From the NCBI GenBank assembly GCA_949710005.1, contig OX453272.1, positions 2,993,633 through 3,057,632 of the forward strand: a DNA stretch of 64,000 nt, given 5' to 3'. Numbering within the stretch: position 1 is the stretch's first letter; each line of letters starts with the position of its first letter. The DNA comes from Ricordea florida (taxonomy: Eukaryota; Cnidaria; Anthozoa; Corallimorpharia; Ricordeidae). The position numbers were made by a program, and so were the translations under genes. Shown in pieces: positions 11,316-40,510 of this stretch. The notes below the pieces were generated by a model, which did no database searches, had not been told where the DNA came from, and saw only the letters and a program-made list of their open reading frames with translations.

Positions 11316-12608
11316 ATGAATTTTACTAACTCAACTCCGACGGAAGGACCTTTGGCAAACGTCTCAGTCAAGAAGTCGCTGACTGCCGCGTGTTATGTAG
11401 AAGACGCTCCGTCTGTGAAAGTAGCTCGAGTTGTCGCTTACAGCGTTTTGATATTAGTTTCTCTCATTGCAAACGCCTTTGTAATAGTCGCGATTTACAA
11501 GTATGGAAGAGCTCGTAAAACTATCAACTACACAATAATGAACATGAGTGTATCAAACCTTCTCATTACAACAGTGTATATGCCAAGGTTGATTCCCATG
11601 TATCTACTCGGCACAGTTTGGTTGGTGAAAGGTGAAGTTGGTTACGTCTTATGTAAGACTGTGCCATTTGTACACGGAGTTGCAGTTATCACGTCTGTTT
11701 TGACGTTACTCTGCACTAGTATAGACACATTCTGCGCTGTGGTGTTCCCGCTGAAAAACCTGTTTACGATTAAGGTAGCGAAAATCACAGTGTTTGCAAC
11801 GTGGGCTACCGCTGTCCTAGTACGCCTACCTTACTTTATATCACTACGAACGAAAACATCGCCGAAAGGAAAGCATTCGTGTGGTTCTAACCTAAGCGCA
11901 ACTTTTAACAACGAGCACGCAAGAGACATATACTATACATTCCTCTTCGTAACCATGTACTCGCTACCCTGGCTCGGCATTGTTGTCTTCTACGTAGTCA
12001 TAGCAGTCCGATTGAAAATGGTTGATGTACCCCAGCAAGAAACAATCACAGCTTTTCCGTTGCACAGGGTTCGCGCTAGAGCAACTCGCAACATTGTTCG
12101 AATGACCGTGATCATAACATTTGTTTTTCTCGTTTGTTGGATTGCATACTTTTTAGCACAGATTGCGTACAGCACGGTTCCTTGCAGCTTCCGTTTTTGG
12201 CGCATGTTTTTGGCGCACAGTAGCTGTGCTATTATTCCGCTGTTATTCACCATTTTTAATTCGACGATTCGACGGGTGATAAAAAACGTTTTTAGAAAGA
12301 TCCAGACTCCAAGAAGGTATATGTATGCATGCGATGCTTTCATTGCAAGCACTTATCAAAAGAAAGCGATGATGACTCGAAAGCAGAAAATCTACATATC
12401 CCCTGTGGAATATAAACAAGGCTCAAATGCTTTCACTCTCTCAGCGGCGCCTACAGTAGAATTAAGCAGAGGTCACAGAAGACAAGTAGTGCGAAGAAAC
12501 CCGTATAATGGTAAAGAAATAGGTGTTATGAGCGTAAGCAAAAAAGAAAATTGTGATTCAGGTAGTCTGCTTTTAAATATGAGGAAACTAGAAAACGTGG
12601 AGAAGTGA
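11316..12608 (+). CDS. Rhodopsin-class (class A) G-protein-coupled receptor, single coding exon
   Basis: This 430-residue receptor is predicted to signal from the plasma membrane; its ligand is unknown. The N-terminus has N-glycosylation sites (NFT, NVS). Seven hydrophobic segments fall at about 36-60, 72-96, 112-140, 155-175, 205-232, 260-284 and 297-314. Kept hallmarks are N53 in helix 1, W163 in helix 4, and C113 at the top of helix 3 with C189 in loop 2 for the usual disulfide. Several hallmarks are altered: N81 where D2.50 is expected, DTF (137-139) for DRY, CWIA (274-277) for CWxP, and IPLLF for NPxxY. The cytoplasmic tail is long (about 110 residues) and basic. The start follows an acceptor (TTTCAG|AGAATG), implying a 5'UTR intron. 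The overall look is peptide/amine-receptor-like, as in lineage-expanded cnidarian GPCRs. The altered motifs could mean biased signalling or a decaying copy, although the frame is intact. Confidence 0.85.
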   Translation: MNFTNSTPTEGPLANVSVKKSLTAACYVEDAPSVKVARVVAYSVLILVSLIANAFVIVAIYKYGRARKTINYTIMNMSVSNLLITTVYMPRLIPMYLLGTVWLVKGEVGYVLCKTVPFVHGVAVITSVLTLLCTSIDTFCAVVFPLKNLFTIKVAKITVFATWATAVLVRLPYFISLRTKTSPKGKHSCGSNLSATFNNEHARDIYYTFLFVTMYSLPWLGIVVFYVVIAVRLKMVDVPQQETITAFPLHRVRARATRNIVRMTVIITFVFLVCWIAYFLAQIAYSTVPCSFRFWRMFLAHSSCAIIPLLFTIFNSTIRRVIKNVFRKIQTPRRYMYACDAFIASTYQKKAMMTRKQKIYISPVEYKQGSNAFTLSAAPTVELSRGHRRQVVRRNPYNGKEIGVMSVSKKENCDSGSLLLNMRKLENVEK

Positions 12609-14759: not shown

Positions 14760-14765
14760 ATTTTG

Positions 14766-14895
14766 TACGGTGGCCCAGAAGGGTCACACCTGCAAATTAA
14801 AAATTTTACCTGCAAATTAAAAATAGTACATGCAAATTAAAAACAGCACAAGCAAATTAAAAATTGTGCATGCAAACTAAAAATGTTACCTGCAA
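14766..14895 (+). repeat. Left terminal inverted repeat of the outer element with iterated subterminal units
   Basis: After the 33-bp perfect end come about five units of 19-20 bp with core TGCAAATTAAAAA and variable linkers (TTTACC, TAGTACA, GTGCA, GTTACC). The right end carries the same units in inverse order. Iterated subterminal motifs are typical transposase-binding sites, which is the inferred role. Confidence 0.75.
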
Positions 14896-15168
14896 ACAGG
14901 AGCCCATCAAGGGGAGCCTCTATCTCCATTAATTCCTTGAGTCAACCCTTTCCCGAGTAGATTTATTTTAAGAACGACTTTTCTCCCGCGAAAAGTATCA
15001 TGTTCGCGTCGAGGCTTGTATGTAACCGCGATGAAAGAAATGGCGGACGAAGGGGGAAAACTGTATTCCGTCCTTCCAATGTTTTCCTTTTGCCGTGAAC
15101 CCCGTTTACTAATCTTACAGCCGATGGGATCTGGGTGTCAATAAAAGAACGTTATTGAATAACCTTAC

Positions 15169-15285
15169 CAAACATGAACGGTTGGTATATATTAGGACAC
15201 TGCATTTCTTTCAATGCCGTGAGGAGAAGCAAATTTCGGTTATGTTTATGACTGGCTCGTTGTAGTGATTTATCACCGCCAATTT
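15169..15285 (-). pseudogene. 3' part of an outer-element exon, split by the inner transposon
   Basis: On the minus strand this ends in a good donor (TTTG|GTAAGG, GT at 15,168-15,167). It has an open frame with a Lys/Leu-rich helical-looking segment and a Cys-Pro-Asn-Ile-Tyr run. The other half lies at 26,548-26,618. Across a single CAATTT copy the two halves give one 188-nt open exon (phases 2 to 1). The product is unrecognised. In the present genome it is interrupted by 11.3 kb, so it is unlikely to be expressed normally. Confidence 0.6.
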
Positions 15286-15480
15286 CAGGGGCACCCATCG
15301 GATTTGTTCCGCAAAAAAGGTGTTCCGCAGTACACATTCAGCTGGCTGGGAAATTTTTAATTGCTAGTGGCTTCTGCTGGGAATTACTGACGTTTTCAAG
15401 CATTTCAAGCCGAGCTGGCTGGGAAATACTTACTTTTTTTCTAGCATTTCCAGCCGAACAGAAGGAGCTGGCTAAAGGAA
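15286..15480 (+). repeat. Left terminal and subterminal region of the inner element
   Basis: Three copies of a GCTGGCTGGGAA-type motif (about 15,343, 15,411 and a weaker one near 15,467) follow the CAGGGGCACCC end. The same layout (end, GTTCC.CAG, about 10 bp, GCTGGCTGGGAA) is found at 54,410-54,607 in inverse and at 55,457, which defines the left-type end of this family. Confidence 0.7.
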
Positions 15481-15492
15481 CACTGGAGATTG

Positions 15493-15540
15493 ATGGCGAG
15501 TGAAAATGAACCCCTCCACCACTCCCTCGGTGGTGACAAA
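15493..15540 (+). CDS. Possible first coding exon of the inner element
   Basis: An ATG just inside the subterminal repeats opens a 16-codon frame (MASENEPLHHSLGGDK) that stops at a consensus-like donor, AAA|GTAATG. Its position suggests a 5' exon of the inner element's gene, but I could not find an unambiguous in-phase second exon. Confidence 0.25.
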
Positions 15541-17721
15541 GTAATGACCGCTGGCTAAAGTTATCGCGTTTGCGGAAAAAACCGGTTTTGGTCGGTTTTG
15601 GTCGCTTCTGTCTTCATACACGCGGGATTATGCAAGATCCAACGACATTTTGAGGGAATATATTTTGCATCTTCCTCATTTACATGTAAGATTAATTTTC
15701 CATTGTTTTGTTCTCTGTATGCTGAAGTTCTTGTGATGTTCTTCTACAGTTGAGACGAATTGAATGAGCTAACAACAGTATTTTCATTCACAGATTCTGC
15801 AGATTTGGGGTGCCAGTTCGGCTTCCCGCCCTCAGTTCTAGAGTCGACAGCGTGATTCTTCAAACAGAAGGCAAGTTTTTATCCTCTACTTTTACGGTAA
15901 AAATTTTATTGTTTCAGTTAATTTCTTTCGACAACTCCAGGCTGTAGAGGACAAGCATGTTGTCAATTTCGTGTTTTCATTCCGAATTCAACAGTGGTTC
16001 AACACTGACAGATTTCTGAATTTGGTGGAAGTGGTGGTATATGCCTTAAAGTTGTAGTCAACTGTGCAAGCTTGGAAACAATTTTGTTATCTTGCCAGGC
16101 TAATTGTCAGTTGAGGGGCAATTTTGGCAGGGCACGAAGTTTGTCTGGCCAGACATTATTTTATAGTTGTGTTGTCTTATGGTTTTACGGCTATGCCAGT
16201 CCAGTGACTACAGTCTTACATGTATCATCATTACTTTTACATTATGTCTAATGCTTCAGATTGGCATCATGAGCACTGTTGTAGTGTAGATTTTTATATG
16301 CCCAACTGAGTGAAATTTACTTGTGTGAGATTGGTCCTTATCAATTTATCAGGACAGACCAACATGGACTAAGTAAAGTCCTATGATTGAAATGCAACCG
16401 ATCATCAGCTGTTTTGTGTGGGCTTGGGTAATAAATATTTGCAAATAAATATTTTTTCTGTTGATTAGTGTTTTTGTGTATTGTGTATGTTAGTAATTGT
16501 TATTATGACCAACATTGTACATTTTTTTACTTGGCAGATCTTTTACTACTCCTTTTTGATATCAACAATTTATCATATCATCCTCTTATTATAACAAACA
16601 AGGTTGAGTTAGGCTTGTGACGATGAGCATTCATTGCTTGTTCATTCTTGTGACCCTCTCTCTTCCATCAGGTTGAGTTAGGCTTGTGACGATGAGCATT
16701 CATTGCTTGTTCATTCTTGTGACCCTCTCTCTTCCATCAGGTTGAGTTAGGCTTGTGACGATGAGCATTCATTGCTTGTTCATTCTTGTGACCCTCTCTC
16801 TTCCATCAGGTTGAGTTAGGCTTGTGACGATGAGCATTCATTGCTTGTTCATTCTTGTGACCCTCTCTCTTCCATCAGGTTGAGTTAGGCTTGTGACGAT
16901 GAGCATTCATTGCTTGTTCATTCTTGTGACCCTCTCTCTTCCATCAGGTTGAGTTAGGCTTGTGACGATGAGCATTCATTGCTTGTTCATTCTTGTGACC
17001 CTCTCTCTTCCATCGGAATGAGTTAGGCTTGTGACGATGAGCATTCACTGTTCGTTCATTCTTGTGACCCTCTCTCTTCCATCAGGTTGAGTTAGGCTTG
17101 TGACGATGAGCATTCATTGCTTGTTCATTCTTGTGACCCTCTCTCTTCCATCAAGTTGAGTTAGGCTTGTGACGATGAGCATTCACTGTTTGTTCATTCT
17201 TGTGACCCTCTCTCTTCTATCGGGTGAAGGTATTTTTTTTCTATGCGCCAACTCTTAAATTTGCACTCACTGTATGTGAATGTTTGCATATTCAAGTCAT
17301 TGAGATGAAGATGTTCAACAATCTGTTCAGCCATGGTAACAATTTCATTTTGTAATAAATTAATGGCAATGAGAAGTCTATTTAGTTGGGGCATTTAGCA
17401 GTCAGACATTTCTGGCTGAGTACCTGAAGCCTAGCTTGGTCACATTTTGCACCATGATAAGAAATGGATGTTACTACCTCAGCAGCTTTTTTTGACAAAG
17501 AAGTAATTTTCTGATGACATGTTGCAACTTACGGTAGTCTTTGCACCTGCTCTATATTGAAAATTCAAAGGGTTTGAGTTCAAGGAAAAGCAATCAGTGT
17601 TCTTTTACTTGTTATGAATGATTTTAATATTTTTCATTCAATGAGGCCATAACTAAAATGACAGTGAATCAATCATACTATTTGTCTCTAATTTCTTTTT
17701 TCCTTTTAATTTATTTTGCAG
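15541..17721. other. Inner-element intron or spacer, containing a tandem repeat
   Basis: No supported coding exon is seen. It holds the 69-bp tandem array (listed separately). A short acceptor-like TTTTCATTCACAG lies near 15,781-15,793, with an open frame only in a phase that does not fit the upstream exon. Confidence 0.4.
16602..17222. repeat. Tandem array, 9 copies of a 69-bp unit
   Basis: The unit begins GGTTGAGTTAGGCTTGTGAC and ends CCCTCTCTCTTCCATCA. Unit starts fall every 69 bp from 16,602 to 17,154. Copies 1-6 are essentially identical and copies 7-9 carry a few substitutions, so the array expanded recently. It sits inside the inner transposon. Confidence 0.9.
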
Positions 17722-17928
17722 GTGACCATGGAAAGGACATGCATATGGAACTGGACTGTTGAAAAGGTACAGCATACAAAACAAGTTTCTGATGTCATAC
17801 TTAAAGATGAATTGTTCCAGGCCTTTCAAGCTGAAAATCCAGACATTCCTCGAGATAACTTTTTTTCTTGGTTTGGTCGATTTATGGGAAGTGCCCCATT
17901 TAACTCTGTCACTCCACACAAAATCAAA
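17722..17928 (+). CDS. Winged-helix-like exon of the inner element
   Basis: The exon starts after TTATTTTGCAG and can end at AAA|GTAGGA (GT at 17,929). This gives 69 codons with matching phase-0 borders; without splicing the frame stops at 17,943. The pattern KDELFQAF...RDNFFSWFGRF parallels KEELWGSFF...REKFFSCLGIA in the exon at 57,137-57,601. Both resemble the RFX / poxvirus D5-C-terminal type winged helix (conserved Leu-Tyr/Phe, Arg, Phe, Gly positions). A DNA-binding role is inferred. Confidence 0.45.
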
Positions 17929-17943
17929 GTAGGACTATGGTGA

Positions 17944-19798
17944 ACTCGTGGATATGTTTACAAAACAGAGAAAAAAGAAATAATTTAAAAATTACCAAGG
18001 TGTTTTTTCAGAGTTGTGATTGAATGAACTTGAAGATAATTTTAATAATCTATAATCACAACATAAAAGTGACCAGGGAGCTGAGTAGCTTTTTGAAATA
18101 AACATACAGTGAGTACATGACGCCAATCATTTGACTACTCTAGGCATCAGTTATAAGGCAGGTGGCAAGCATACAGTTGTTAAAAAATTTGATAACTTAA
18201 CTTAAGGGTACAGGATTAAATGGCACCGAAACCAAATGTAGTTCTGGTATCCTGCTGCTCACTGTCTTTCTAACACATGTAACAGGGTCCTTCTGAATAA
18301 GGTCTGAATTTTGTTAGCATGACATTGTCAATTTTATCATCATTATAGTTTTTGTTGTCTACAAGTCTATTCAATGTATTCAACAGAAATATCCACCTTG
18401 ATTCTGCAGCTGATAATGAACAAAACCATGTAGGATAGCCCAGCTGACGAATCATACCAAACAAGTCTTTCTTGCAAATTTTGCAAAGTATGTTAGTGAT
18501 GATCTTAAAATCCTTAAGACTCTCAATCCTTTATCAAGTTGAATTAGTTTATTTACATTACCATCTCATTTTAGGTTATCAGTGGTATATATATTCAGCG
18601 TTGCACTTAAAAAAATCACACTTGCCATCATTAATACAGCAATACATCTTTGTTTTTATCCTTATAACTTCTTGTTTTTACAATGTAAATATGAGTCACA
18701 CAACAGTAAGCAAAACAGGTAAGCCTATTTTTCCAACATGTCTACTTCAACACAATCTAGTTCACTTCAAGGTAAATTCGGAAATCAATACACAGAAAAC
18801 TTTTCATTGTAACGGCTTGTGGTGTATTGTATATAATATAACGCTTAATACATTTTCTACATGACCTACTGTTTTCGAACCCTTTAATGACTTTCTTACA
18901 TTGTAACCTTCGTGGTTCTCCGTCACGGCAGCCGCCTCCATATTTACAAGTAAATGTTGACATACTTCTTGGCCGTCCCAATACTTCTACAACTCCATTC
19001 CTGTTAGTACTAACACTTAAATCAGTAGAAAAGTCCGACATGCGATGTTTCTTATCCAGGTTGGCCACAGAAGTTCTTCGGTTTCACATCATGGATTCGT
19101 CAATTTATTGTTTTCAGTAGTAGTTTCGTTCAATAACGAGTACTCATTTCGCTCATATAAGTTCTCATTCAAGTGCTAATTTCGCTCTATGAGTTCTCAC
19201 CAAAGCTTACTACATTAGCAAGAGATTTTCTCATCTTCAGATCACTTTCGAGCCAACTGAAATTCATATACTGCTTGTAATCTTGGGGGCGGTCGATGTC
19301 GGAAAAGCGAATAGTTATCATCTGTTCACGTTTAGCGCCTGGCCGAGTAAAAGGCTCACGAAATTCAGTCTCCAATTTGGTCATTGTCGTAACTGGAAAC
19401 ATTTAAACTCCTTTTGATTTTAGTAAGACCGCTAATGAGGCCCTGTTAGTGAGGTTCTTTATGTCGCGCGTCTGACTTTCAAACCTTCTCACGTCGCAAT
19501 TTCGGAAGGTCGAAGGTCGCTGTCGTAATTTCCCGTGAGCGGCTCGTCGTTCGTCGCCATTTCAGGTCCTTTATGTCGCCGTTTCAAGGCCATGTTGCTT
19601 GTCGAAATTTAACCCTAACAGGGCCTCGCTAATCGTCCTCTTAAGCTACAAAATCATTACAAACTCTGGCAACGGTACGATACACTTTCAGCGTGAACTT
19701 TCATCAACAGACTTCCGTGACTTCGGTCACGACAATTGTCGTCTTCATATCGGTGCCCCCGAGTTCTATCCGACTAATTACGAAGTGTGTCTACACTG
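17944..19798. other. Inner-element spacer, no firm gene
   Basis: A minus-strand open frame at about 18,757-19,068 has a Cys-rich segment (TFTCKYGGGC and RSCRKC) ending near AAT|GTAAGA. It could be an exon, but it begins at GTG with no clear acceptor. Nothing else is supported. Confidence 0.3.
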
Positions 19799-19868
19799 GA
19801 GTGAGTGAGTGAGTGAGTGAGTGAGTGAGCGAGTGAGTGAGTGAGTGAGTGAGTGAGTGAGTGAGTGA
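19799..19868. repeat. (GTGA)n microsatellite
   Basis: About 17 GTGA/GAGT units with one GAGC interruption. It places stops in all + frames and so marks the 5' limit of the open frame that follows. Confidence 0.95.
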
Positions 19869-21330
19869 CAATTTGCATATCGGAGTCCCCACAAAAACTC
19901 GCAAATACGCTTCGCGTATCCACGAGTTAAAAAGGGGGAAGGCAGTGGGGTATTGTTATTTATCATTTAAAAATAATAAAGCCAGTGAGTCAGTGGCTCA
20001 TAAACAAAATCAATATGTGAGTAATTATGAGGTACTAAATAGGAAAAAAGATAAAGAAATAACTAAATCTAAAACAACTAAGAAAAGAAAATCTTGTCAT
20101 GGTGTTGCTGGTGTGGGTTTTGAAAACAAGCCACAAAACAAAATTTCAAAAATGAGTGACTGTAATTACCAAATGCAGAAGTGTCGTGTTGATGATGGAA
20201 ATTTATCAAAACAAACTGGTGAGGAAAAAGGATCTAAAAGTGAAACCAACATAACTGACACAACAGAATCTTGTCAAAGTGTTGATGTGGCTTCAGAAGA
20301 AGATGAAGTGATTGAGGAAGTTTCAATTGAGCAGCAAATGCAAAAGGCAAAAGAAATTAAATACTATTCTCAACAAGTGAAGTCTAGTAAAGGAAATGTA
20401 AATGGATCAGAGGAGATTGGTGGTAAAAGGTTATCTGAATGTGAAACAAAAACACGTATTGACAATATAGCTTACCAGGATGTTTCCGATGCTAGTTCTG
20501 TGGAAAGTGGTGATTATTCAGACTTTGGCAGTGACTCTCTGGTTTGTGGTTCTGATGTAGAGGAGGATGATGATGGTGGTGATGATATGACTGTTGTGTC
20601 TGAAACTTCCTGGAATGACCCCAGTGATGAGGTGGATGATCAATTACCTGATCATTCAAAGGGGGCATCTTTCCGCAGAAAAGATTGTGAGGGCATGTTT
20701 TTCAAACCATCCATATTTTTTGGTTACTGGAAAAATGTGAAGGCCTTTACATCTGCCAAGCTACCTCATGGTTTTTCAAATCATAAAAGCCATCTTGAGC
20801 AGCAGTTCCCAAGGTCCTCATTTCAGGAGAACATTGCCCTTTTTAATGCAATTGGGTCTGTCAGCAATGTTTGCCTGACACTACTACACAGCTTTTTGGC
20901 AGCATCTTTCTTGCCAATTTCCGTTGGCCCAAGGTCTGCACCTTATGTGGCGCCAATATCAATAGGTTCTCCATTTCCTCAATTTTCTATTGCTACTGCT
21001 ACCAGATCTAAATTTAAGTGTGAGATCTGTATCCCTTATCAAAAATGGGCTCAAGAACATAACAGTGTATGTGCTAGACTAAAGTCAAAGACTGCCACAC
21101 AAGATCAGATTGCTAAAGGCACTGCATACTTAATGTTGTCTGGACTTAGGCAGCTGTATGAGCATGCCATTTCTAAATCCCATAGAGAGGCAGTTGATTT
21201 CTTCCTTGATAAGAGTGATGAAAGTGCTTTACCCAAAAGTACAAATGTACAACAGAAAGAAGGGAAACAACCTAAGAAGCTGCAATCCAACCTTGATTCT
21301 TTCTTTCTTTCATCTCAATCTTTAAACTGA
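19861..21330 (+). CDS. Inner-element ORF1: zinc-finger protein with a C-terminal PIP-box
   Basis: The open frame has up to 489 codons. The true 5' end is unresolved, because the frame begins in the GTGA repeat without ATG and the first in-frame ATG is at 20,152. The N-terminal half is polar: a Lys/Arg cluster near 62-77 (possible nuclear signal) and acidic Ser/Asp-rich stretches near 140-150 and 205-255. The C-terminal half has C387-x2-C390 and H435-x5-H441, a spacing like BED/TTF-type zinc fingers of transposases. Residues 475-482 read QSNLDSFF, an exact match to the PCNA-interacting PIP-box (QxxLxxFF), followed by a short tail. It likely binds element ends and recruits the replication clamp. 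It may be spliced or frame-joined to ORF2. Confidence 0.6.
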   Translation: MSDNLHIGVPTKTRKYASRIHELKRGKAVGYCYLSFKNNKASESVAHKQNQYVSNYEVLNRKKDKEITKSKTTKKRKSCHGVAGVGFENKPQNKISKMSDCNYQMQKCRVDDGNLSKQTGEEKGSKSETNITDTTESCQSVDVASEEDEVIEEVSIEQQMQKAKEIKYYSQQVKSSKGNVNGSEEIGGKRLSECETKTRIDNIAYQDVSDASSVESGDYSDFGSDSLVCGSDVEEDDDGGDDMTVVSETSWNDPSDEVDDQLPDHSKGASFRRKDCEGMFFKPSIFFGYWKNVKAFTSAKLPHGFSNHKSHLEQQFPRSSFQENIALFNAIGSVSNVCLTLLHSFLAASFLPISVGPRSAPYVAPISIGSPFPQFSIATATRSKFKCEICIPYQKWAQEHNSVCARLKSKTATQDQIAKGTAYLMLSGLRQLYEHAISKSHREAVDFFLDKSDESALPKSTNVQQKEGKQPKKLQSNLDSFFLSSQSLN

Positions 21331-21434
21331 GGAGGACCTCTGGATCTAGTGATAAAAAGGTCAGATGTCATTTTTTTTGGGATCCAGAGGTCGTTAAACA
21401 TTTTAAGGATGCAGTTCAGATTCGTAGGTCAAAT

Positions 21435-24080
21435 GTGCGTTCATTGTTTCGTGAAATGTCCAAAATGGGACAAATTAAATGCAGAACTGCAGGGCACAAA
21501 AATTGTATCCAATACCAAGTGTGGAAGAAAAGGCATCCCCTTCAGCACAAAAATCTTGTTGAAAAAGCTGCAAATTCTCCTAGATCTGCATTTATTCCAC
21601 AACTCACAACTCTAAATGTTCATGGGAAACATGTTAAGATTGAGGGTGGTATCATGAGTATTGTGCCACCTTGTTTGGGTGTTGCTGAGGCAGGTGGAGA
21701 TCATCCATACACTTGTACAAACTGTTCAAAGCAGTTGAGAGACCTTAAAGATCACTTGAGGAAGAAGAAGAATGCAGTGTATGGAGAGACTGACAGCAGG
21801 ATTGGAAGAAGAGGTTTTCGTATAAGCTATGCCCGTGTGAATGAGCAAAGAAGGGCTTTTGAGAAGGAGAAAATCGGTAAGAAAAGGGCAGAGAAACTGA
21901 ACAGTGGTCTTCTAAATGTTGTTCGCACACACAAAGAATGGGAAGAGGTGTTGGGGGAATCAGTTGAGAATCAGGATGATGTAAAGTTCATCCTTGACTT
22001 GGTGGGGTTGTTTAAAGGAAATGTAGCTAAAGAGCACCCTATTCAAATGACTGTGATGAAGAATTTGGTTGGAAAGTTAAAAAGCAAGAACAATCACAAG
22101 TACCTTGATATTGTAAAAGATATCAGTACATTGCACAAAAATAGGCTTGGTGAAAGAAATTATAGTATTTTGGCTGACATTTTTGGCTTGTGTGGCAAGA
22201 CAGCGGCTAGTTCACATGGAGGGAGTGAAAAATTGTATCCTGGTTTGAATGAGGCTGCTTTAGAAAAAGCATGTGATGTTTACTCAGGCATGCCAGTAAT
22301 TGAGTGCAGTGATGAAGCGCGAGCTTTGCGTTATTTGGAGGCCCGTAAAAGTATTGATGGAGGTGTTGAACTTGTTGGAAGGTGCTTTGATCCTTCAGTT
22401 GAGAACTGGGATCACAAATCTTTGCAAATACCAAGAAGAGGTGAAAGCAATGCCCCAGATGAGTTTTGTGCTTTGAAACATTTGGTTGAAGACTTAGTGA
22501 GCAATGATTTGTTATCTAAAAGTGTTTCCATACACCATTTTTCATCATTAACATCCGTGTGGAAACCCAATGTTATTCATTGCTTGTGGCCAACGCCAAA
22601 TACAGGCTACAAGTCCATACATCTTCTAAAATACCTTAAACATCTGAGACAATTAGCCATTTTTGAACCTAATGGGTGTTTGAGGAAAAAACCTTTGAAT
22701 CTGATGGGATTTTCAACTGACTCAGCAGGATTTTCTCTTGCAGCTTCATTAATTTCTATGACTCCTTCTGAAAGTCAAGTTGAAGCTGGTGTTCATTTTT
22801 TGAGGCTGGGAATTGATGATGAGAAATTTGCAGCTCCTTACTACTTCAAGTTGCCTTTTATTGCTTACCTAGATTATGAACACGAAAGAAGGTTATTTGC
22901 AAAATGTTTGAAGTATTCAACCCTGGATTTGACTTTCTGGAAATGTTCTAGTATGTGTATTGCAACCATTGACCACCTGAGAGCTCTTAGAGAGAAATGC
23001 AAAGAAGAAGGTGTTGCTTGTGGCTTTACTGTACATGATCTTTTGCTTGCTTCCTTCTTTGACCAAAATCCTGATGCAAGTGACCGCCTTTTTACCATGC
23101 AAACAGCAGACCTTCTTGACAAGTATGTTTCTTCATCCCAAGGTACGAGCCTGTTTATTAAAGCTGTGTACTATTTAACTGAACCTTTCAGAAATGTTAA
23201 TTTTGGCACTCCAGCAGAAGTGCAAACATCATTGTCAACTGGGATAACCATCTTCAGACACTGGAAACGTTTGGTAGAACTCCAAAATCGTAGACTGCGT
23301 GCAAAAGCTGGTGCAAAAACAAATCCAGCAAACAGAGGCCACTTTCTTACTTATGGTTGTGAGCAAACAGCAGAGATATTGTTTGCTGCTGGTACCCTAC
23401 ATAATCTAGCTCTCTTTTTGCATTTCAAAGAACTAGGTCCAAGGTGGTCTTCTCCTTACTGCTCTGGAACAAAGTCAACTGAACGCATTATTGGTGAATT
23501 ACAAGGCAAAACTGTCCAGATGCAGTCCCTAAATAGTCAGCCTACCTTTGGAGAAATGCTTGATAAGGCAGCTTTGGTGCAATTTAATCAGGGCGCAGAG
23601 AAAACGCTGGCTTTATCTGGTATCAAGGTTAAACCTACAACTGCACGCAAAAAGCTCGCCTTTGCCTTCCAAACACCCGAAGATGGGTCAAAGCAAGTGT
23701 ACAAATACCCCGATTCTTTCCGGGAGTATCAGAATGAGCAAAAAATGGCCCACCAGAAAGGAATCTTGCTTGGTTTGTCACAGCTGGAGAAGTACCTTCC
23801 CCTAGCTGCTGTTGATTGTTTGAAGAAGGCAAGTGCATGGGGGATGCCATTCAAATTCAATATGCCCGAAGGAATGAAAGAGATAATAGATTCAATCGAC
23901 CTGTTGATTTTGCTTCCAGTTCAAGATATGGCAGAAAGCGTTTCCACAAAACCAATGTCGACGAGGCAAGCAATCCTCTCTCAGATGTTGAAAAGGTGGA
24001 AGAGGGTAATAGTGTTAAAAGAAAGCCTAAAAAGAAAAGAGTTAAGAATCTCTCAAAACAACAAAACACTAAAACTGTAA
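21435..24080 (+). CDS. Inner-element ORF2: probable DDE transposase
   Basis: The frame is open for 881 codons from the first ATG, and coding-like sequence begins upstream, near 21,345 (DKKVRCHFFWDPE). A Cys cluster at 80-97 (C80, C94, C97) could bind zinc. Candidate catalytic residues are D429 in STDSAG, D480 in AYLDYEHE, and E683 in STERIIGELQGK, an order and spacing (D-51-D-203-E) like transposases with an inserted helical domain before the Glu. W609 and H608 (FRHWKRL) lie in that insert. I do not recognise the superfamily. Frame 3 is coding-like to about 23,960 and the next ORF continues in another frame, so one indel, an intron or a real overlap lies there. Confidence 0.6.
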   Translation: MRSLFREMSKMGQIKCRTAGHKNCIQYQVWKKRHPLQHKNLVEKAANSPRSAFIPQLTTLNVHGKHVKIEGGIMSIVPPCLGVAEAGGDHPYTCTNCSKQLRDLKDHLRKKKNAVYGETDSRIGRRGFRISYARVNEQRRAFEKEKIGKKRAEKLNSGLLNVVRTHKEWEEVLGESVENQDDVKFILDLVGLFKGNVAKEHPIQMTVMKNLVGKLKSKNNHKYLDIVKDISTLHKNRLGERNYSILADIFGLCGKTAASSHGGSEKLYPGLNEAALEKACDVYSGMPVIECSDEARALRYLEARKSIDGGVELVGRCFDPSVENWDHKSLQIPRRGESNAPDEFCALKHLVEDLVSNDLLSKSVSIHHFSSLTSVWKPNVIHCLWPTPNTGYKSIHLLKYLKHLRQLAIFEPNGCLRKKPLNLMGFSTDSAGFSLAASLISMTPSESQVEAGVHFLRLGIDDEKFAAPYYFKLPFIAYLDYEHERRLFAKCLKYSTLDLTFWKCSSMCIATIDHLRALREKCKEEGVACGFTVHDLLLASFFDQNPDASDRLFTMQTADLLDKYVSSSQGTSLFIKAVYYLTEPFRNVNFGTPAEVQTSLSTGITIFRHWKRLVELQNRRLRAKAGAKTNPANRGHFLTYGCEQTAEILFAAGTLHNLALFLHFKELGPRWSSPYCSGTKSTERIIGELQGKTVQMQSLNSQPTFGEMLDKAALVQFNQGAEKTLALSGIKVKPTTARKKLAFAFQTPEDGSKQVYKYPDSFREYQNEQKMAHQKGILLGLSQLEKYLPLAAVDCLKKASAWGMPFKFNMPEGMKEIIDSIDLLILLPVQDMAESVSTKPMSTRQAILSQMLKRWKRVIVLKESLKRKELRISQNNKTLKL

Positions 24081-25369
24081 GAACAACTAAGTTGGAAACT
24101 GAAAGCCACGTGAACTGTGATGTTAATATCACACCCTACATGAAACATGACATAAATATGTCAAAAGCAGATGAAACAAAACATCCTGCAACAATCATTT
24201 CAGATGCTCCCAAAACCTCTGAGCAACAAAATCCTGTGAACCAACTGTCTACTTCTGGTGACATTGATGAAAATGCTGTTCCCTCAGTGAGTATCCCTGA
24301 TGTTTCCCTTTTAAAGGCAGATTTGCTTCAAAGTAGTGGAAGGTTTTCCAGCCCTAGAATGGCAGTTGCTTCCTATCACACACCACCAGTGCGCAGATGC
24401 AGCAAATTCACTCTGTTATCCTTGAATGCGAGTAATGGGAATTTGGCTGACCCTTTTACTGTTGATTGGATACCTCCAGAAAGAGTGCTAAATAATGCAT
24501 CAACAAGTCTGCATAAAAAAGAAAACCCAGGAGCTCATGTTGTTGAATTCAGTGGCTTGGGTGAATTCAATGCTCAATCTCTTAGGGTACTTCAAAATTA
24601 TTTTGCATTCAAGTCTATTACAACAAAGGCTAGATTTGAGGACAAGTGGCTACATGAGGATACACAAGGAGTTTCCACCAACGAAAAGTTGCTGCTCTTA
24701 AACACTGTCCTGTATCTTCCTCCCAGAAATGGTGGTTTGATTGCCAAGCGCAATGACATTGAAATCTTTGTTGATGACTTGACAACTCTTTGCGGAGAAC
24801 GGTACCTCAATGATAAAATTATCGATTTCTTCTTGAATTTGGTTGATGAAAGGGCAAACAGCAATGCGGGTAAGGCCATTTGCTTGTCTCTATCTACCTT
24901 CCTTTCACCAGAGCAAATGGGTGAAGGAGCAATGAAAATGCTTCATAGGGTAACCCTTACCCACGATATTTCTTCTTTGGAAATCATGATGTTACCTTGC
25001 ATCATTGGAAGCAATCACTGGGGTCTAATAGTTTTTGACCTGATATCGCAACAAATTTTCTATGATGATGGTTTCCACATGAAACCTCCTCCAATGTACT
25101 TGAGGAGCTGCAAAAAAGTGTTGCAGGTATTTTTTGAGAACTCTCATTGTGAGAGGTTCAATGTTGGCAAATGGAAGTCTCCCTCCCTTGAGAGTTTCGG
25201 CATGCCTGACCAACCCCACTCTGGCACAGGATCGGCGAGCTGTGGCATTGGTGTTCTCCTTGCAGCAAGAGACTTGTCCAATGGTGTCACGAAGTTTGGA
25301 TGGACATTCAAAGAAGCCCCTCTCCACAGAAAGCGATTTATGCTGGATGTTATTAATGAGATGCAGTGA
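23816..25369 (+). CDS. Inner-element ORF3: Ulp1/adenain-family (C48) cysteine protease
   Basis: The open frame has 517 codons, with the recognisable coding part starting near residue 38. Residues 48-200 are a basic and polar linker (KRKPKKKR at about 68-75). The C-terminal 220 residues are a Ulp1-like protease: YLNDKIIDFFLNL (330-342), catalytic His401 in NHWGL, Asp417/418 in FYDDGF, Gln466 before the nucleophile and Cys476 in SASCGIG, in the order H-D-Q-C expected for SUMO/adenoviral-type proteases. It probably cleaves the transposase polyprotein or removes SUMO/ubiquitin-like tags. It overlaps ORF2 by 265 nt in the -1 frame. A single polyprotein broken by an indel is as likely as two genes. 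Confidence 0.7.
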   Translation: MFEEGKCMGDAIQIQYARRNERDNRFNRPVDFASSSRYGRKRFHKTNVDEASNPLSDVEKVEEGNSVKRKPKKKRVKNLSKQQNTKTVRTTKLETESHVNCDVNITPYMKHDINMSKADETKHPATIISDAPKTSEQQNPVNQLSTSGDIDENAVPSVSIPDVSLLKADLLQSSGRFSSPRMAVASYHTPPVRRCSKFTLLSLNASNGNLADPFTVDWIPPERVLNNASTSLHKKENPGAHVVEFSGLGEFNAQSLRVLQNYFAFKSITTKARFEDKWLHEDTQGVSTNEKLLLLNTVLYLPPRNGGLIAKRNDIEIFVDDLTTLCGERYLNDKIIDFFLNLVDERANSNAGKAICLSLSTFLSPEQMGEGAMKMLHRVTLTHDISSLEIMMLPCIIGSNHWGLIVFDLISQQIFYDDGFHMKPPPMYLRSCKKVLQVFFENSHCERFNVGKWKSPSLESFGMPDQPHSGTGSASCGIGVLLAARDLSNGVTKFGWTFKEAPLHRKRFMLDVINEMQ

Positions 25370-26285
25370 TGGTACGGTTCTTTATTTATAAAATCTGGGC
25401 AGCTATTCTATTCATTATTAATATTTCTTCTAAGTGTTTCATTGCTTTTCTTTTTCAGACTATAGGTATTACTAGCACAGCTCAATTCAGTTAAAATATT
25501 TTCTTATCAAACCAAGGTAGAGGAAAAGTTAGTTTCTACTTTTAAGTTGGACGGAGTTCATAATTATATTGTACAGCAAAACAGTTCATTCCCTGTAACA
25601 AATTCCCTTTACTACTCAAGGAGAGACTTTGTACTAACACAACTTATTTTCTTTTTTCAATGTTTTAGGTTACTGTTATTTTATGGTGAAACCTACATAG
25701 CAGTCTGCCTTTGCTATATCTTCGTTTGCAGGGTCCACTACTTCAAAGGCTTTCTTGCAAAGGACCGAAAGACAAAGGTCTAGTTTATACAAGTTCATGG
25801 CGAGGACCCAGTCAAACATTGAAATTGTTTGCAAAATTGACAGTGTGACTGGAAAAGTCAAGTCAATGTAACAACCAACCATGAAATCTGTGAGAAACGA
25901 GCATACTCCCAAGGATAAAATTTTAGAACATTTTTGGAGATGGAAGAGTAAAGTAAAACCGAATTGTATGTAATCTTTATGTAATCTTATGTAATGTTCA
26001 TGCTAGCTACGAGACATTGTACCTCTTTTTTGCACACTCACTGTTCACTGTATGTCAGAATTACACGAATCAGTTAATAAATGTTTGACAGTGAAAGGTA
26101 ATTGTCTAATTGTCTTACTCATGAAATAATTTATTGTCCATTAGCCTTTTTGCATAACAGCCAAGCAACCATGATTCCCACCATTTGTTTGGAGAAGTTT
26201 TAAAATATTAGCATTAGAATTATTAAGGCATTTTCTCATATGCGGAAGCAAAATAAGGGCAAAACTAAAGGAATACAGGACAAGC
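25370..26285. other. 3' region of the inner element
   Basis: AT-rich with no supported gene. AATAAA near 26,080 (GTTAATAAATG) is a possible poly(A) signal for ORF3. A pyrimidine tract plus AG near 25,457 could be a splice acceptor of a 3'UTR intron. Confidence 0.35.
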
Positions 26286-26541
26286 ATGCGTTTTTCACTA
26301 ATTAATGTCTTTTTCAAATGCTGGCTGGGAAAAAAATCAGCAGACAGTCAGCTGGCTGGGAATTTCCCTGGCAACGTAGCTGTGAAGTGGAACTTTTCTT
26401 ACCATCCTGCTGGGAGTGCGGAACAGATATTTTTTTCCCAGCAACAGAAAAAAGATACTAAAAATGCCTTTAAAGTGTTAACTTATCATTGTGATGGGTT
26501 GAATATTGCATTTTGAGAAAATGTTTCGTTGGGTGCCCCTG
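26286..26541 (+). repeat. Right terminal and subterminal region of the inner element
   Basis: Read inward from the end: CAGGGGCACCCAACGA, then GTTAACACTTT, GCTGGGAAAAAAATA, a GCTC/GCACTCCC block, and two CCCAGCCAGC motifs. Copies at 33,912 and 56,631 share this layout, defining the right-type end. The motif direction is opposite to that at the left end. Confidence 0.7.
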
Positions 26542-26547
26542 CAATTT

Positions 26548-26618
26548 CCCATGTAATTCCTACGAAAAGTATCGATAATGAAACGTTCTTTAGATGTATC
26601 TGCTCGTCCCGATGGCCA
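26548..26618 (-). pseudogene. 5' part of the outer-element exon split by the inner transposon
   Basis: On the minus strand an acceptor (CCGTTTTTACAG) precedes the exon, which starts at 26,618. The frame that fits the downstream half reads GHRDEQIHLKNVSLSILFVG and then TWE up to the target duplication. It continues in frame into 15,285-15,169. Product unknown. Confidence 0.6.
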
Positions 26619-26749
26619 CTGTAAAAACGGTACTTTGACAAATGCAAATCCAAAAACGGTACTTTGACAAATGCAAATTTTGCAATTATTCTACTCTATA
26701 GAGAGGAAAAAAATTTCGCAATAAAGTCACTGGATATAATACTGTATAA

Positions 26750-26880
26750 ACGGAATATTTCGCAGTGAGTGAATTTTCGTTAACGGCGAAGTAGGAATCT
26801 CAATTATAAAATGGAAGGGAATATTTCGCAGTTAGTGAAGTTTCATTAACGGCGAAGTAGGAATCCCCATTATTGCGTTC
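26750..26880. repeat. Two copies of the 66-bp hairpin repeat
   Basis: Each copy carries TTCGCAGT(T/G)AGTGAA followed by a near inverse, TTC(A/G)TTAACGGCGAA, as in the larger array at 28,615-29,340. About 1.7 kb of other repeat DNA separates the two blocks, which suggests an insertion into one array. Confidence 0.7.
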
Positions 26881-27469
26881 GACGAAGGAGAATGCATTCC
26901 TAATGCAGGCGAATTTGAAATATATGTATGTATGGACACGCTTTTCACCCCCCGCGAACTTGAATTGTGTAGGCTTCCTCACTGGCAAAAGAAAACGCTT
27001 TATTTTTCCGCAAAACAACGATGAAACTCCTCAAAACTTTGAGATTCGACAGGAAAAAATTAGAGCAACGTTTCACCTGATCAAAAGTTGATAATAATCT
27101 AGGCTTCAAGACTTTTTTTCGCTTATTTGAAAGTTTGTTTACAAACAGAATTTGCCGTGCGCGCGCTACTTACGCCACCAAAACAGGTTCAAAAGTAAAG
27201 AAACGTTTTGGCCTAAATCCTGGTTATTTCGTGCTTTTTCTCAATTCTGTCATACAAATCATTTGTTGGGTTTGTTTGGTCTCATTCGGCAATTTATGAC
27301 AAAAACAAGCGGTATTTTGAAAACTTTTCTATCAAAACAAATTTTGATCACGCGTAAAATCCTAGTATGCGTCAGATGAACGGGAGAGAGAATCCGTTTT
27401 TTTGATCAGGGTCTAACAACTTCAAATTTGCTTTATTTTCGCTCGAATAGCGGAGGAATCGCGATAAAA
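26881..27469. other. No supported gene
   Basis: Spacer within the outer element. Short open frames at 26,873 and 27,152 have no recognisable feature and no splice context that I trust. Confidence 0.35.
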
Positions 27470-27644
27470 AAACTAATTTTGATTTTGAGACGTCAATACC
27501 TCATTATATTGACGGCGTTGGGAGAAAATATATTATTCGTATTGGGCTCCGTCGCCACTTGACTCCGCCAAATACGGAATATATTTTCTTCCAACTAGCC
27601 GTCAATATCATGCGGTATTGACGCCTCAAGACCAAAATTAGTTT
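27470..27644. repeat. Long foldback with arms of about 75 bp
   Basis: AACTAATTTT...GAGACGTCAATACC on the left pairs with GGTATTGACGCCTC...AAAATTAGTTT on the right. AGAAAATATATT and its inverse AATATATTTTCT lie near the centre. It would form a stable hairpin and is a MITE-like insertion in the outer element. Confidence 0.75.
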
Positions 27645-27894
27645 ATATTAGCGAGCGTCAGGGACGGCGAACGGAAAGTGGTCATACTATTTTGGTGTTA
27701 AAAAGTGTTTTAGGCAGTATTTATGGTGTCTTAAAGAAGCGTGTACGAATTCTTTTGTGACTATGAAGGCAAATTTGGGATCTGTTTTGTCAAGTCGGCC
27801 ACGTTCGAGAAGAAAGAGCTACTGCGTCATGTTGAATACCGAGGATGAATTCCGTCATCGCACTTCGGTTTTACTTCGCAAGGAATGTTACCTA

Positions 27895-28150
27895 CCGAGT
27901 TGTGTAGCTCGGCCGGTCAGGATTTGTGGCCGTAAAACAAAATTACTGAGTTGTGTAGCTCAGGCGGCCATGATTTGTGGCCGTAAAACAAACTTTACGA
28001 GCTGTGTAGCTCGGCCGGCCATGATTTGTGGCCGTAAAACAAAGTTACTGAGTTGTGTAGTTCAGGCGGCCATGATTTGTGGCAGAAAAACAAACTTTAC
28101 GCGCTGTGTAGCTCGGTTGATTTGTGATCGAGAAATAAATTTACGGAGCT
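27895..28150. repeat. 51-bp tandem repeat, about 5 copies
   Basis: The unit carries TGTGTAGCTC, GGC(C/G)GG(C/T)CA and GATTTGTGGCCGTAAAACAA. Units alternate between CTCGGCCGG and CTCAGGCGG versions. The array is part of an open + frame (27,757-28,200) whose 17-residue repeats are a consequence of the 51-bp period. I do not call a gene. Confidence 0.75.
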
Positions 28151-28614
28151 CAAGCTCATTATGGTTTGTAGCATCTGCTCATTGTCTATCTAAGGGCTGA
28201 TTCAGCCAGATCAGAGTCCTTACGTCTCTCGGGGAAATCAGCGAATTAGTTAGCTCAATCGGCAGTAGAGATTCCACTGCTGCAAATTGTAGTAATAAAA
28301 AATGGGGGTCACCAAGCTCGTTTTTGAGTTATTACAGCTTAAAGCTAAATTTAAAGGTGTTTTCGACAGGTCATATTGTTGCTATGGTAACCTGTTATAA
28401 AAACGGATGACCGTAACCTGTTTACCAATGATTAGGCATTTGTATTATACCGTTATTGTATTATCGCTTGTTAAACAGTCTTTGGTAGTATTCATCTTTC
28501 TATGTGACAGCATGACTGTAGAATAATTCGTGAGAATTAATAATTGGTATCAAAATTCAACATCTCTATCAAAGTCGAACGCATTTCCCTGATCACTGAT
28601 TATTGCTAGTAATA

Positions 28615-29340
28615 TAGAAGAGAATATTTCGCAGTCAGTGAATTTTCATTAACGGCGAAGTAGGAGTCCCCATTATAGAATAGAAGGGAATATTTAGCAG
28701 TTAGTGATTTGTCATTAACGGCGAAGTATGAAGTCCCAGCTATAAATTTGAAGGGAATATTTCGCAGTTACTGAATTTTCATTAACGGCGAACTAGGAAT
28801 CTCCATTATAATATAGAAGGGAATATTTCGCAGTTAGTGAAATTTCATTAACGGCGAAGTAGGAATCTCAATTATAATATAGAAGGGAATATTTCGCGTT
28901 AGTGAATTTTCATTAACGGCGAAGTAGGAGTCCCCATTATAGAATAGAAGGGAATATTTCGCAGTTAGTGATTTGTCATTAACGGCGAAGTATGAAGTCC
29001 CAGCTATAAATTTAAAGGGAATATTTCGCAGTTACTGAATTTTCATTAACGGCGAACTAGGCATCTCCATTATAATGTAGAAGGGAATATTTCGCAGTTA
29101 GTGAAATTTCATTAACGGCGAAGTAGGAATCTCAATTATAATATAGAAGGGAATATTTCGCAGTTAGTGAATTTTCATTAACGGCGAAGTAGGAGTCCCC
29201 ATTATAGAATAGAAGGGAATATTTCGCAGTTAGTGATTTGTCATTAACGGCGAAGTATGAAGTCCCAGCTATAAATTTGAAGGGAATATTTCGCAGTTAG
29301 TGAATTTTCATTAACGGCGAAGTAGGAATCTCAAATATAA
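28615..29340. repeat. 66-bp tandem array with hairpin units and a 4-unit higher-order period
   Basis: About 11 units are spaced 64-68 bp apart (near 28,621, 28,687, 28,753, 28,819, 28,887, 28,951, 29,018, 29,083, 29,149, 29,215 and 29,282). Each contains the imperfect palindrome TTCGCAGTTAGTGAA-TT-TTCATTAACGGCGAA (written as its two 15-bp arms). Variants follow the order A-B-C-D-A-B-C-D-A-B, where B has GATTTGTC and AGTCCCAGC and C has GCGAACTAGG. Confidence 0.85.
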
Positions 29341-29344
29341 TATA

Positions 29345-29510
29345 GAACCAAAGTTTGAAGTAAAACTCCTTATCGAATCAGAATTCTTTACATGATTTGG
29401 GAATTCATTAAAAAGATCAGCAGCTGAATAAGAAAATGATCTACTTCCTGATTTAGATGTAATCCTATTCAAATGAATATTACTACGTCCCCAAGTATTA
29501 TAATTATTGC
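29345..29510 (-). mobile_element. LINE (non-LTR) reverse transcriptase, extreme C-terminal fragment
   Basis: The minus-strand frame contains NIHLNR...SGSRSFSYSAADLFNEFP, the characteristic tail of CR1/L2/Jockey-type reverse transcriptase ORFs (SxRSFxYxAAxLWNxLP). It is the continuation of the fragment at 31,320-31,872, separated by a later 1.8-kb insertion. Non-functional. Confidence 0.65.
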
Positions 29511-31319
29511 GGGCCCAAGAGAGGCCCGCAACCCTAATCTTGACAGTGACCAGCGGATTGCGTTTTACGCGTGCGCGCCACGGTAATAACAGGCTAGCAC
29601 AAAGCGGAAGTTTAAAATTTTGTTCTTCCACTAAGAACGATCGGAATGCAAATCATCACGACAGTTTGTCGTAACACCGGAAGAGAAAAATCCGTTCTCC
29701 AAGAACGATAAGAATGCGAAAAATGAGTCAATCTCACAATGCGAAAAATGAGTCGATCTCAACAGTTTGTCACATAAAATCGAGGCATGGAAGATTGCAA
29801 ACGTTATGTTTTGGAGAAGTTGTTTTATACGTGTTGCTTTTGAGACGATTTGCTGTGATTGTGAAGATTTTCACGATCTATTTAAATTCATATTGCCGTG
29901 AAGATTAGGTGAGTTGCGTTATATTTTGTACTGTTCAGTTTTTGGACGGTTAATTTTTCTGGTAACCCACTTTCCCTTTTTGAAGGAGCTGTTTGACATG
30001 TTTCGATTTACGGAGCTGATCTTCTACAACTCAATGAAAACTTCCCAAAAAACGTCCACACGAATGTACATTTTGTAATCTAAAAGTATACACTCTCGTT
30101 CCAGTACCTTCCCTATTGATGCTATTGATGAAAGCTGAACAAATTGAAAACATATCTTCAAAATCGATAAATGAACAAATCCTCTATCGTGTTTGTGCTA
30201 TTATTTTCTTACCTTGTCTATTTCACAGCTCGTTTTCGTTATTAAAAAAATCATGTCTCACTTACACGGGTATTGAACTTGAAAATAAATGAATTTAAAC
30301 GTGAAAAAGCAGGCTTCAAAAGCACACAAAAAGTGATGCCGACATGTTCATTTCATGGCTTCGCATAATTAAAGGCGCGACAAGGAAAGGTGATTGTCGG
30401 CACACGTGTAAACAAACATTCGCAGCACAAAATTTTACAATACCGGAATATTCGACGCATCAGTGAAATATTCTTAGCTAGCACTGCCTTGAGTTAAAGA
30501 GTATATTCCCGTTTCAAGCGATTTCTTAGACTCAGTAGGTCCTGAGATATCGATTTTTTTGAGGACAGATTTTTACAAGCGCCATTATTCTCAATGAAAT
30601 ATCGAAAACAATGGTTGTGAAAACTTACTAATTGCACGCAAAAGGATACCATGTCAACAAAGAAAATGGATAAAGTTTTTACTAGATTCAAAACGTTATA
30701 GAAAGGTAACTGACAACAATTTACAATCTCCAATCATTTACGATAAGTGTAACCACGTGCAGTTTTGAGTCAATACGCCCGGTGTAAAACGAGCACGTCA
30801 AAGTTTCAAGATGATTTTGAAAGTCGCTTTTCGCTAGATTATTTTAAAATTACAGTTGTTTTGGGGTGCGGGTTATCTGCCAGTGCGGGTAATCTGTTGA
30901 AATTTTTTTCTCGCTATTGGAAAAATCGACTGATGCGGGTAATCTGCCGCGCGGGTAAACGGCCGGAAATTACGGTAAGTGCACCTAGGCCCGCACTTTC
31001 TAACCTGTGGTTACCACTAGTTTATTATATAGACACGAGTGTTTTACTGGAAAATATACCACTCGTAAAATTCATAAAAACTACATCCGGGACCCGAGTG
31101 GTTTATTTTCCATAATCTCACACGTGAGTTTATCGATGACGTAATTTGTTAATAATTTCTTTTTGTCTATATAATAAAAAGAACATTACACGGCGACTTG
31201 AAGATATGAATTTTATTTTCTCGTGGCAAAAACAATATTTTACTCACTCGCTGCGCTCGTTCGTAAAATATTGTTTTGCCACGAGAAAATAAAATTCATA
31301 TCTTCGCGCCACCGTGTAA
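29511..31319. mobile_element. Unidentified 1.8-kb insertion splitting the LINE
   Basis: LINE coding sequence stops on either side of this interval at matching positions (around the Tyr-Asn/Tyr-Thr residues). Inside are a small GCGGGCC/GGCCCGC hairpin at the left border, a large foldback at 31,199-31,305 and no gene that I can support. Borders are approximate and no target duplication was resolved. Confidence 0.4.
31199..31305. repeat. Foldback with 43-bp arms
   Basis: GAAGATATGAATTTTATTTT and its exact inverse flank a short loop, ACTCACTCGCTGCGCTCGTTC. The arms extend through CTCGTGGCAAAA(A)CAATATTTTAC with a single-base difference. A similar palindromic stretch starts at 31,018. Confidence 0.8.
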
Positions 31320-32266: not shown

Positions 32267-32308
32267 GGCTCAAACCAGGTCCCATCAGTCATACTGCGCG
32301 CGCAGGAC

Positions 32309-32444: not shown

Positions 32445-32450
32445 ATTTTG

Positions 32451-35279: not shown

Positions 35280-35306
35280 TAATAAGAAGAAGAATTATTA
35301 TACAAA

Positions 35307-40485: not shown

Positions 40486-40510
40486 TAGCCAAAGTATCTT
40501 ATAAATTACA

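Follow-up and report, generated by a model that had tools for sequence, protein, structure and literature searches.

A decayed DNA transposon of Ricordea florida and a candidate −1 frameshift signal joining the two reading frames of its family

The window analysed here is a stretch of 64,000 nucleotides from the Ricordea florida assembly (C1:2993633-3057632); the assembly itself, 538 Mb in 48 contigs, was the genome searched throughout. Two mobile elements lie one inside the other in this stretch: an outer element and, inserted into it, an inner DNA transposon, which is the main subject of this report. The inner element is probably a decayed member of a cut-and-paste family whose enzyme would be a fusion of two open reading frames (ORFs), ORF1 and ORF2, joined by −1 frameshifting. 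An earlier note on this DNA, made by a reader of the sequence, had placed the ends of the inner element at 15286 and 26541, between perfect CAATTT duplications. The features that define the element are the following.

15286 to 26541, plus strand: inner DNA transposon, 11256 bp, with terminal inverted repeats (TIRs) and a target-site duplication (TSD); its ends match those of genome copies
15280 to 15285: left TSD, CAATTT, perfect
26542 to 26547: right TSD, CAATTT, perfect
15286 to 15297, plus strand: left TIR, CAGGGGCACCCA, the same 12 bases in 19 of 19 other paired copies
26530 to 26541, plus strand: right TIR, TGGGTGCCCCTG, present in 19 of 19 other paired copies
15343 to 15424, plus strand: left subterminal repeats, TGGCTGGGA, at 15343 and 15416, with right-hand counterparts at 26322 and 26353
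16601 to 17225, plus strand: minisatellite of 69 bp in 9.1 copies inside the inner element, longer in the copy c3a

The two TIRs form a perfect inverted match over 12 of 12 bases, and both ends recur in the genome. A query of 221 bases, consisting of the duplication and the left end, gave at least 40 matches, the focal copy included, at 97–100% identity, and the right end gave at least 40 at 96–100%; in each search the best 40 of 75 candidates were scored. In 16 of the 40 left-hand matches the alignment opens on the first base of CAGGGG; the other 24 reach 1–6 bases into the duplication, with none starting inside the element, and the right-hand matches end exactly on the last element base in 19 and extend 1–6 bases outward in 21, with none falling short of it. 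Nineteen left and right ends in the same orientation, 2.5–9.2 kb apart, were paired and 32 bases were read at each end. All 19 pairs have the termini CAGGGGCACCCA and TGGGTGCCCCTG, each within a different flank, and are bordered by perfect duplications of 6 bp (16 pairs) or 7 bp (3 pairs); no other length was found among them in the range of 4–10 bp that was checked. In 15 of the 19, an A stands five bases upstream of the element. Copy c3a at its left end and copy c6 at both ends, the latter with the 6-bp duplication TGCTTT on either side, align with the focal ends at identical bases; the right end of c3a was searched for and not found. Constant inverted ends in many copies and duplications of fixed length, the marks of a TIR-type DNA transposon, are thus both present. 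The boundaries and duplications given by the earlier note are borne out, and the alignment of further copies that it had proposed for fixing the exact ends returns the same termini in every pair.

Most of the paired copies (16 of 19) are 2.5–3.6 kb long and, judged by this size, are non-autonomous derivatives. A transposase more than 90% identical to that of the focal copy occurs at only three genome loci, the focal one included. Two intact copies, c1a and c1b, are 99.8% identical over 9306 bp, and many scored ends are 96–98% identical to the focal ends, which suggests that the family, a large one, has been mobile recently and is perhaps still active.

The coding content of the focal copy and the junction between its reading frames are arranged as follows.

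17728 to 17923, plus strand: 5′ part of ORF1 (MERTCIW...), truncated by a nested insert; the frame continues past the insert site in c3a
17924 to 19928: third-level nested insert of 2005 bp, absent from c3a and c6; Helentron-like by eye, class unproven
19929 to 21330, plus strand: 3′ part of ORF1, with an acidic region, a Cys/His motif, a PIP-like tail and the stop TGA at 21328-21330
21283 to 21306, plus strand: PIP-like QSNLDSFF, in the 3′ part of ORF1
21321 to 21327, plus strand: slippery heptamer T_TTA_AAC (ORF1 frame), in 12 of 15 junctions read
21335 to 21346, plus strand: 5′ arm of a hairpin, 7 nt past the heptamer
21381 to 21392, plus strand: 3′ arm of the hairpin
21321 to 23885, plus strand: ORF2 up to a deletion, in the −1 frame, with zinc-binding patterns and a putative DDE (Asp-Asp-Glu) core
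22719 (D475), 22872 (D526xxH529) and 23481 (E729), plus strand: putative DDE residues
23885 to 23891: junction of an internal deletion, about 0.93 kb missing relative to c3a and c6
23891 to 25369, plus strand: rest of ORF2, called ORF3 in the earlier note
about 24755 to 25360, plus strand: Ulp1/SENP domain, its catalytic positions occupied by His, Asp, Gln and Cys

Ten copies of the inner element were fetched from the genome for comparison (c1a, c1b, c3a, c3b, c3d, c4, c6 and c14 among them). In the relatives ORF2 is a single frame of 1734 amino acids (c1a, c1b), 1782 amino acids (c3d, c14) or 1668 amino acids (c3a), and an intact pair, with an ORF1 of 619–643 amino acids and an ORF2 that runs to the protease, is found in three of the ten copies (c1a, c1b and c3d). 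These ORF1 lengths are counted from stop to stop; the ORF1 frame of c3d has no Met at its beginning, and an upstream exon is therefore possible. By eye, the N-terminal part of ORF1 contains a repeated module. Its tail follows the pattern xxx[L/I]xx[F/Y]F, and a full PIP-box, by the usual rule for this motif, is present in the focal lineage only.

The C-terminus of ORF2 is homologous to SENP2 (6e-12), with His, Asp, Gln and Cys falling on the catalytic positions in the alignment. A chromodomain (PF00385) is found in L030 at 5.7e-6, with 26.6 bits against a Pfam gathering score of 25.1; it was matched in three of the six members of the ORF2 alignment, the other three of which do not cover that region, and the family profile matches chromodomains in the PDB at 2.2e-6. 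Invariant over the six members are C24, C62, H67, C70, C126, H136, C140 and C143, which by their pattern would bind zinc, as well as D475, D526xxH529 and E729, and it is plausible that D475, D526 and E729 make up the DDE set of the enzyme. For the middle of ORF2 no relative was recognised. The three ORFs of the earlier note, run against Pfam, NCBIfam and PHROGs, gave a sub-threshold Ulp1 match and others taken as chance; the best E values in a PDB search with ORF2 and one ORF1 were 0.44 and 1.1, and scans of viral contigs and genome contigs returned no relatives. A TPR_30 match in one ORF1 was below the cut-off (0.0019) and was likewise put down to chance, and a single-sequence fold of the ORF2 core, with a predicted local distance difference test (pLDDT) score of 37, was not used.

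The focal copy itself is evidently dead and decayed. The 2005-bp insert, which ends in a hairpin and carries AACTCGTGGATA near one end and in inverted form at the other, and which presumably is Helentron-like by these features, splits ORF1; the deletion of about 0.93 kb took out the chromodomain region and broke the frame of ORF2. Together they leave this copy unable to make an ORF1–ORF2 fusion, and such elements would have to rely on enzyme supplied by intact copies. The deletion is also the reason why ORF2 and ORF3 had appeared as separate genes, a division rejected here as an artefact, the relatives having one continuous frame. The earlier note's set of a zinc finger/PIP protein, a transposase and a Ulp1-like protease therefore holds in part: its ORFs are real and zinc-binding, PIP-like, transposase-like and Ulp1 features are all found, but the three ORFs are incomplete and are not the native arrangement, which in the relatives is ORF1 followed by one ORF2, and the deletion, the 2-kb insert and the lost chromodomain had been overlooked.

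Also overlooked were the slippery heptamer and the hairpin at the point where the two frames meet. ORF2 lies in the −1 frame relative to ORF1 and the two would be joined at U_UUA_AAC. TTTAAAC is in phase with ORF2 in all ten junctions from the focal copy and nine fetched copies (c6 was left out), and the heptamer and hairpin are also present in two of five further junctions taken from more distant matches (L103 and L107, identical over the junction). In the tails of the focal copy, c1a and c3b, TTA AAC is followed at once by a stop, and the bases at this place are identical in c3a and c1b; ORF1 of the c3d lineage continues for another 16 codons. The first Met of ORF2 lies 46–81 residues past the slip site in the four lineages, behind conserved residues, so that independent initiation of ORF2 is unlikely.

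The hairpin has up to 12 bp and folds at −28.4 kcal/mol (z −3.81). Over six distinct sequences its pairing is 97.2%, and this drops to 21–60% when the partners are slid by 1–3 columns; RNAalifold independently recovers 11 of the 12 pairs of the same helix. Changes on both sides occur in six hairpin cells, as many being seen in 1 of 500 shuffles, and none of the 500 reaches the covariation score. The clearest compensation is at a serine-codon wobble position, where T, C or A is met by A, G or T at the wobble of the partner. Of 1000 codon-preserving shuffles for each of the four lineages, 31, 8, 4 and 2 are as stable as the hairpin itself. Rfam gave one chance-level match at the junction, on the other strand. 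With a zero-frame X_XXY_YYZ heptamer at the end of ORF1, ORF2 in the −1 frame and a downstream structure that covaries, the junction is, as far as its sequence goes, a textbook −1 frameshift signal.

Several observations weigh against the reading of this family as a frameshifting cut-and-paste transposon. Three of the 15 junctions, the near-identical L104–L106 of a lineage at 36–37% identity, are without TTTAAAC. Among the 12 positive junctions there are only six distinct sequences, from four related lineages, and the p-values for the frameshift are for this reason not independent. Two of the five covariation measures are weak, three pairs with changes on both sides being seen in 52 of 500 shuffles and further pair types in 182 of 500. 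The arms of the hairpin also encode conserved residues, and a pseudoknot search at the junction found none common to the lineages. On the protein side, the DDE assignment is drawn from the invariant D, D and E by themselves, with no transposase match from Pfam, the PDB or hhalign, and the Pfam Ulp1 model is below its cut-off in the focal copy and unmatched in L030. For the intact lineage c1a/c1b, a left end was searched for and none was recognised.

It is rather improbable that an intron, not frameshifting, joins ORF1 to ORF2 and that the heptamer and hairpin exist only because the protein encoded there is conserved. Introns are frequent in animal DNA transposons. Dada is an example of an intron-bearing one (PMC3706591), and a possible acceptor, TTTTCCAG|G, stands near the heptamer position in the lineage of L104–L106, which may splice or use another device and offers a natural contrast for the joining of the two frames. 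In the main clade, however, there is no AG at one conserved place around the junction, and the five translated tails (focal, c1a, c3b, c3d and c4) show no stop in ORF1 before the heptamer. The compensatory wobble changes in the hairpin (T-A, C-G, A-T) and the lower stability of the codon-preserving shuffles also speak against this reading.

If the frameshift operates, one message would yield mostly ORF1 protein, ending at or soon after the heptamer, and a minority of ribosomes would slip by −1 at U_UUA_AAC, with the help of the hairpin that begins 7 nt further on, and continue through ORF2. The resulting fusion of about 2,350 amino acids would combine zinc fingers with a putative core of the DDE/RNase-H type, a chromodomain and, at its C-terminus, a protease of the SUMO type. 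We infer that this rare fusion would be the transposase, cutting and inserting the element, and that the abundant ORF1 protein would act as its DNA-binding partner or regulator; the chromodomain may serve in targeting. The many short copies, which share the ends, would move with the fusion enzyme. In bacterial insertion sequence (IS) elements, too, a rare frameshift fusion is the transposase and the abundant first product is its partner or regulator.

The site into which the inner element inserted can be read from uninterrupted copies of the target sequence. The features of the outer element are listed here.

14766 to 32444: outer element, 17679 bp with the inner element and 6417 bp without it; IS3EU-like ends TACGG..CCGTA
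14766-14798 and 32412-32444: TIRs of the outer element, 33 bp, perfect; ends TACGGTGGCC..GGCCACCGTA
14760-14765 and 32445-32450: TSD of the outer element, ATTTTG, 6 bp

A genome search with the joined flanks of the inner element gave 39 matches, 26 of which span the junction, two others being the focal halves. Twelve uninterrupted copies were fetched and 11 counted; L093, which has the 4-bp insertion seen in L092, is not in the count. Among the 11 aligned, CAATTT never occurs twice; it is exact in nine and altered in L094 and L101. The inner element therefore inserted into a repeat sequence that already existed, and the nesting and order of events put forward in the earlier note, which had suggested a search for such uninterrupted copies, are upheld. 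Its further proposal, that the flanks merged through one CAATTT form a 188-nt exon and so fix the coding strand of the outer element, fares differently. In the focal copy the merged flanks are indeed open over 188 nt between acceptor- and donor-like ends, and three of the 11 uninterrupted copies (L091, L094 and L096) keep the frame open. It is broken in the other eight, by stops in L095, L097, L098, L099 and L102 and by frame-breaking indels in L092, L100 and L101 (the defects of L098 and L101 were read from the alignment). Substitutions relative to the focal copy number 38, 64 and 62 at codon positions one, two and three, which shows neither codon bias nor a third-position excess, and the acceptor-like site has lost its AG in L098 and reads ATAG in L101. 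It is thus very improbable that the merged flanks are a real exon, and the coding strand derived from them is likewise unconfirmed.

The outer element looks like an IS3EU by its ends and duplication length. The rule for IS3EU, which is drawn from fungal elements, is a 6-bp TSD, a TIR of more than 30 bp and ends TAYGG..CCRTA (PMC12730594); the outer element has TACGG..CCGTA, 33 bp and 6 bp, respectively. No long transposase frame was seen within it. Pieces resembling a non-LTR (long terminal repeat) retrotransposon lie on its minus strand at 29314-31902 (by eye).

Elsewhere in the window, ends like those of the inner element were noted at 33912, 54607, 55457 and 56631. Those at 54607 and 55457 score above the maximum for shuffled sequence and that at 33912 equals it; the one at 56631, picked out by eye, is identical to the right end found in the c3d lineage. 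The end at 55457-55662, CAAGAGTACC, belongs to a young high-copy family of its own, with at least 40 matches (the best 40 of 101 candidates) at 98–100% identity, mostly over 206 bp. A minus-strand ORF at 57137-57601 is nearly identical to the N-terminus of ORF1 in the c3d lineage, and a broken relative therefore lies there. Pairs of a 12-bp TIR with a 6-bp TSD number 11 in the window and 0 in 20 single-base shuffles, a count not used as support. A Maverick/adinto-like element at 34879-50019 has inverted repeats of 413 bp, 99% complementary, and long ORFs that by eye resemble genes for a B-family polymerase, an integrase and a capsid. Finally, a 42-bp tandem repeat at 50390-51392 (23.8 copies) has long open frames on both strands, and a plus-strand ORF of 442 amino acids at 11280-12608 is seven-helix-receptor-like by eye.

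It is quite possible, if still a tentative proposal, that the family of the inner element represents a superfamily of animal DNA transposons not described before, with the TIR CAGGGGCACCCA, duplications of 6–7 bp and a transposase of about 2,350 amino acids made only by −1 frameshifting. If so, it would be the first eukaryotic DNA transposon to use −1 frameshifting and would parallel the insertion sequences of bacteria. Retroviruses and bacterial insertion sequences set the dose of their enzymes in this way; a working frameshift would mean that an animal DNA transposon sets its own enzyme dose at translation, and would give a simple, testable answer to how an element limits its transposase. 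A chromodomain and a SUMO protease on one protein would further suggest that the enzyme is targeted according to chromatin state and that it interferes with silencing through SUMO. A full-text literature search brought up no eukaryotic DNA transposon with a programmed frameshift in the part of its results viewed; the published passages on frameshifting in that part concern a Paramecium non-LTR element, LTR elements and a mammalian example (reference-list entries), and a speculation on CSB-PGBD3 mutations.

By the tests used, which were descriptions and low-power sequence comparison, the inner element appears to match no known superfamily; the hallmarks of hAT, IS3EU, Dada, KDZ (Kyakuja, Dileera, Zisupton) and Ginger were compared and it has the full set of none, in agreement with the earlier note, which could not assign it to a named superfamily. 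The best of the named alternatives would be hAT6, because of the 6-bp duplication and the CAGGGG-type end, a short TIR beginning CAGGGG being typical of hAT. The TSD of hAT is 8 bp (5, 6 or 7 in subgroups), and the 6–7 bp of the inner element would fit only the hAT6 and hAT7 subgroups. The D..DxxH..E pattern in ORF2, of the D..[C/D]xxH..E type, also points to hAT, and a hAT6 group with 6-bp TSDs is on record (PMC12730594). Homology to hAT transposases (e.g. PF05699) was, however, not found in ORF2 by these low-power tests: no hAT model of Pfam matches any of the six members at E<=1, a comparison by hhalign with the genome's own hAT proteins gave a probability of 0.2% (a weak test, the hAT-hAT control reaching only 17%), and no locus of the focal family is among the best 150 of 435 hAT candidates. 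The chromodomain, the Ulp1 protease and the two-ORF frameshift layout also set the inner element apart from hAT6, and we regard a hAT with a strongly diverged transposase as unlikely.

Similarly unlikely is a place in another superfamily with DxxH (P, Kolobok, MuDR or Dada) or in KDZ. The invariant D526xxH529 and E729 would fit such a place, and Kyakuja has 7-bp TSDs and CA..TG termini (PMC12730594). On the other side, a TSD of 6–7 bp is neither the TTAA of Kolobok nor the 8 bp of Zisupton, and TIRs are absent from Kyakuja and Dada (PMC12730594, PMC3706591); no Pfam hit to any of these superfamilies was obtained, and the six ORF2 members show no homology to KDZ transposases at E<=1. Dada resembles the inner element in its 6–7-bp TSD, large size, zinc fingers and a DDE with DxxH, but it mostly has introns and inserts in small nuclear RNA and transfer RNA genes (PMC3706591), and the 12-bp TIR of the inner element led us to reject it. 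Ginger1 and the Ulp1-bearing Mutator elements share a C-terminal Ulp1 protease on the transposase; Ginger differs in its termini (TGTNR), an integrase-type core with a GPY/F motif and shorter duplications (PMC2836005). IS3EU shares the 6-bp TSD and was rejected for the inner element on its ends, CAGGGG..CCCCTG, and on its 12-bp TIR, against TAYGG..CCRTA and more than 30 bp.

The closest counterparts of the junction lie in other classes of element. The −1 signals of retroviruses, LTR elements and bacterial insertion sequences have, as in the inner family, an X_XXY_YYZ heptamer, a short spacer and a hairpin, with a rare fusion as the enzyme. Unlike them, the signal described here is hosted by a eukaryotic TIR-type DNA transposon, and its structure is a plain long hairpin, with no shared pseudoknot found.

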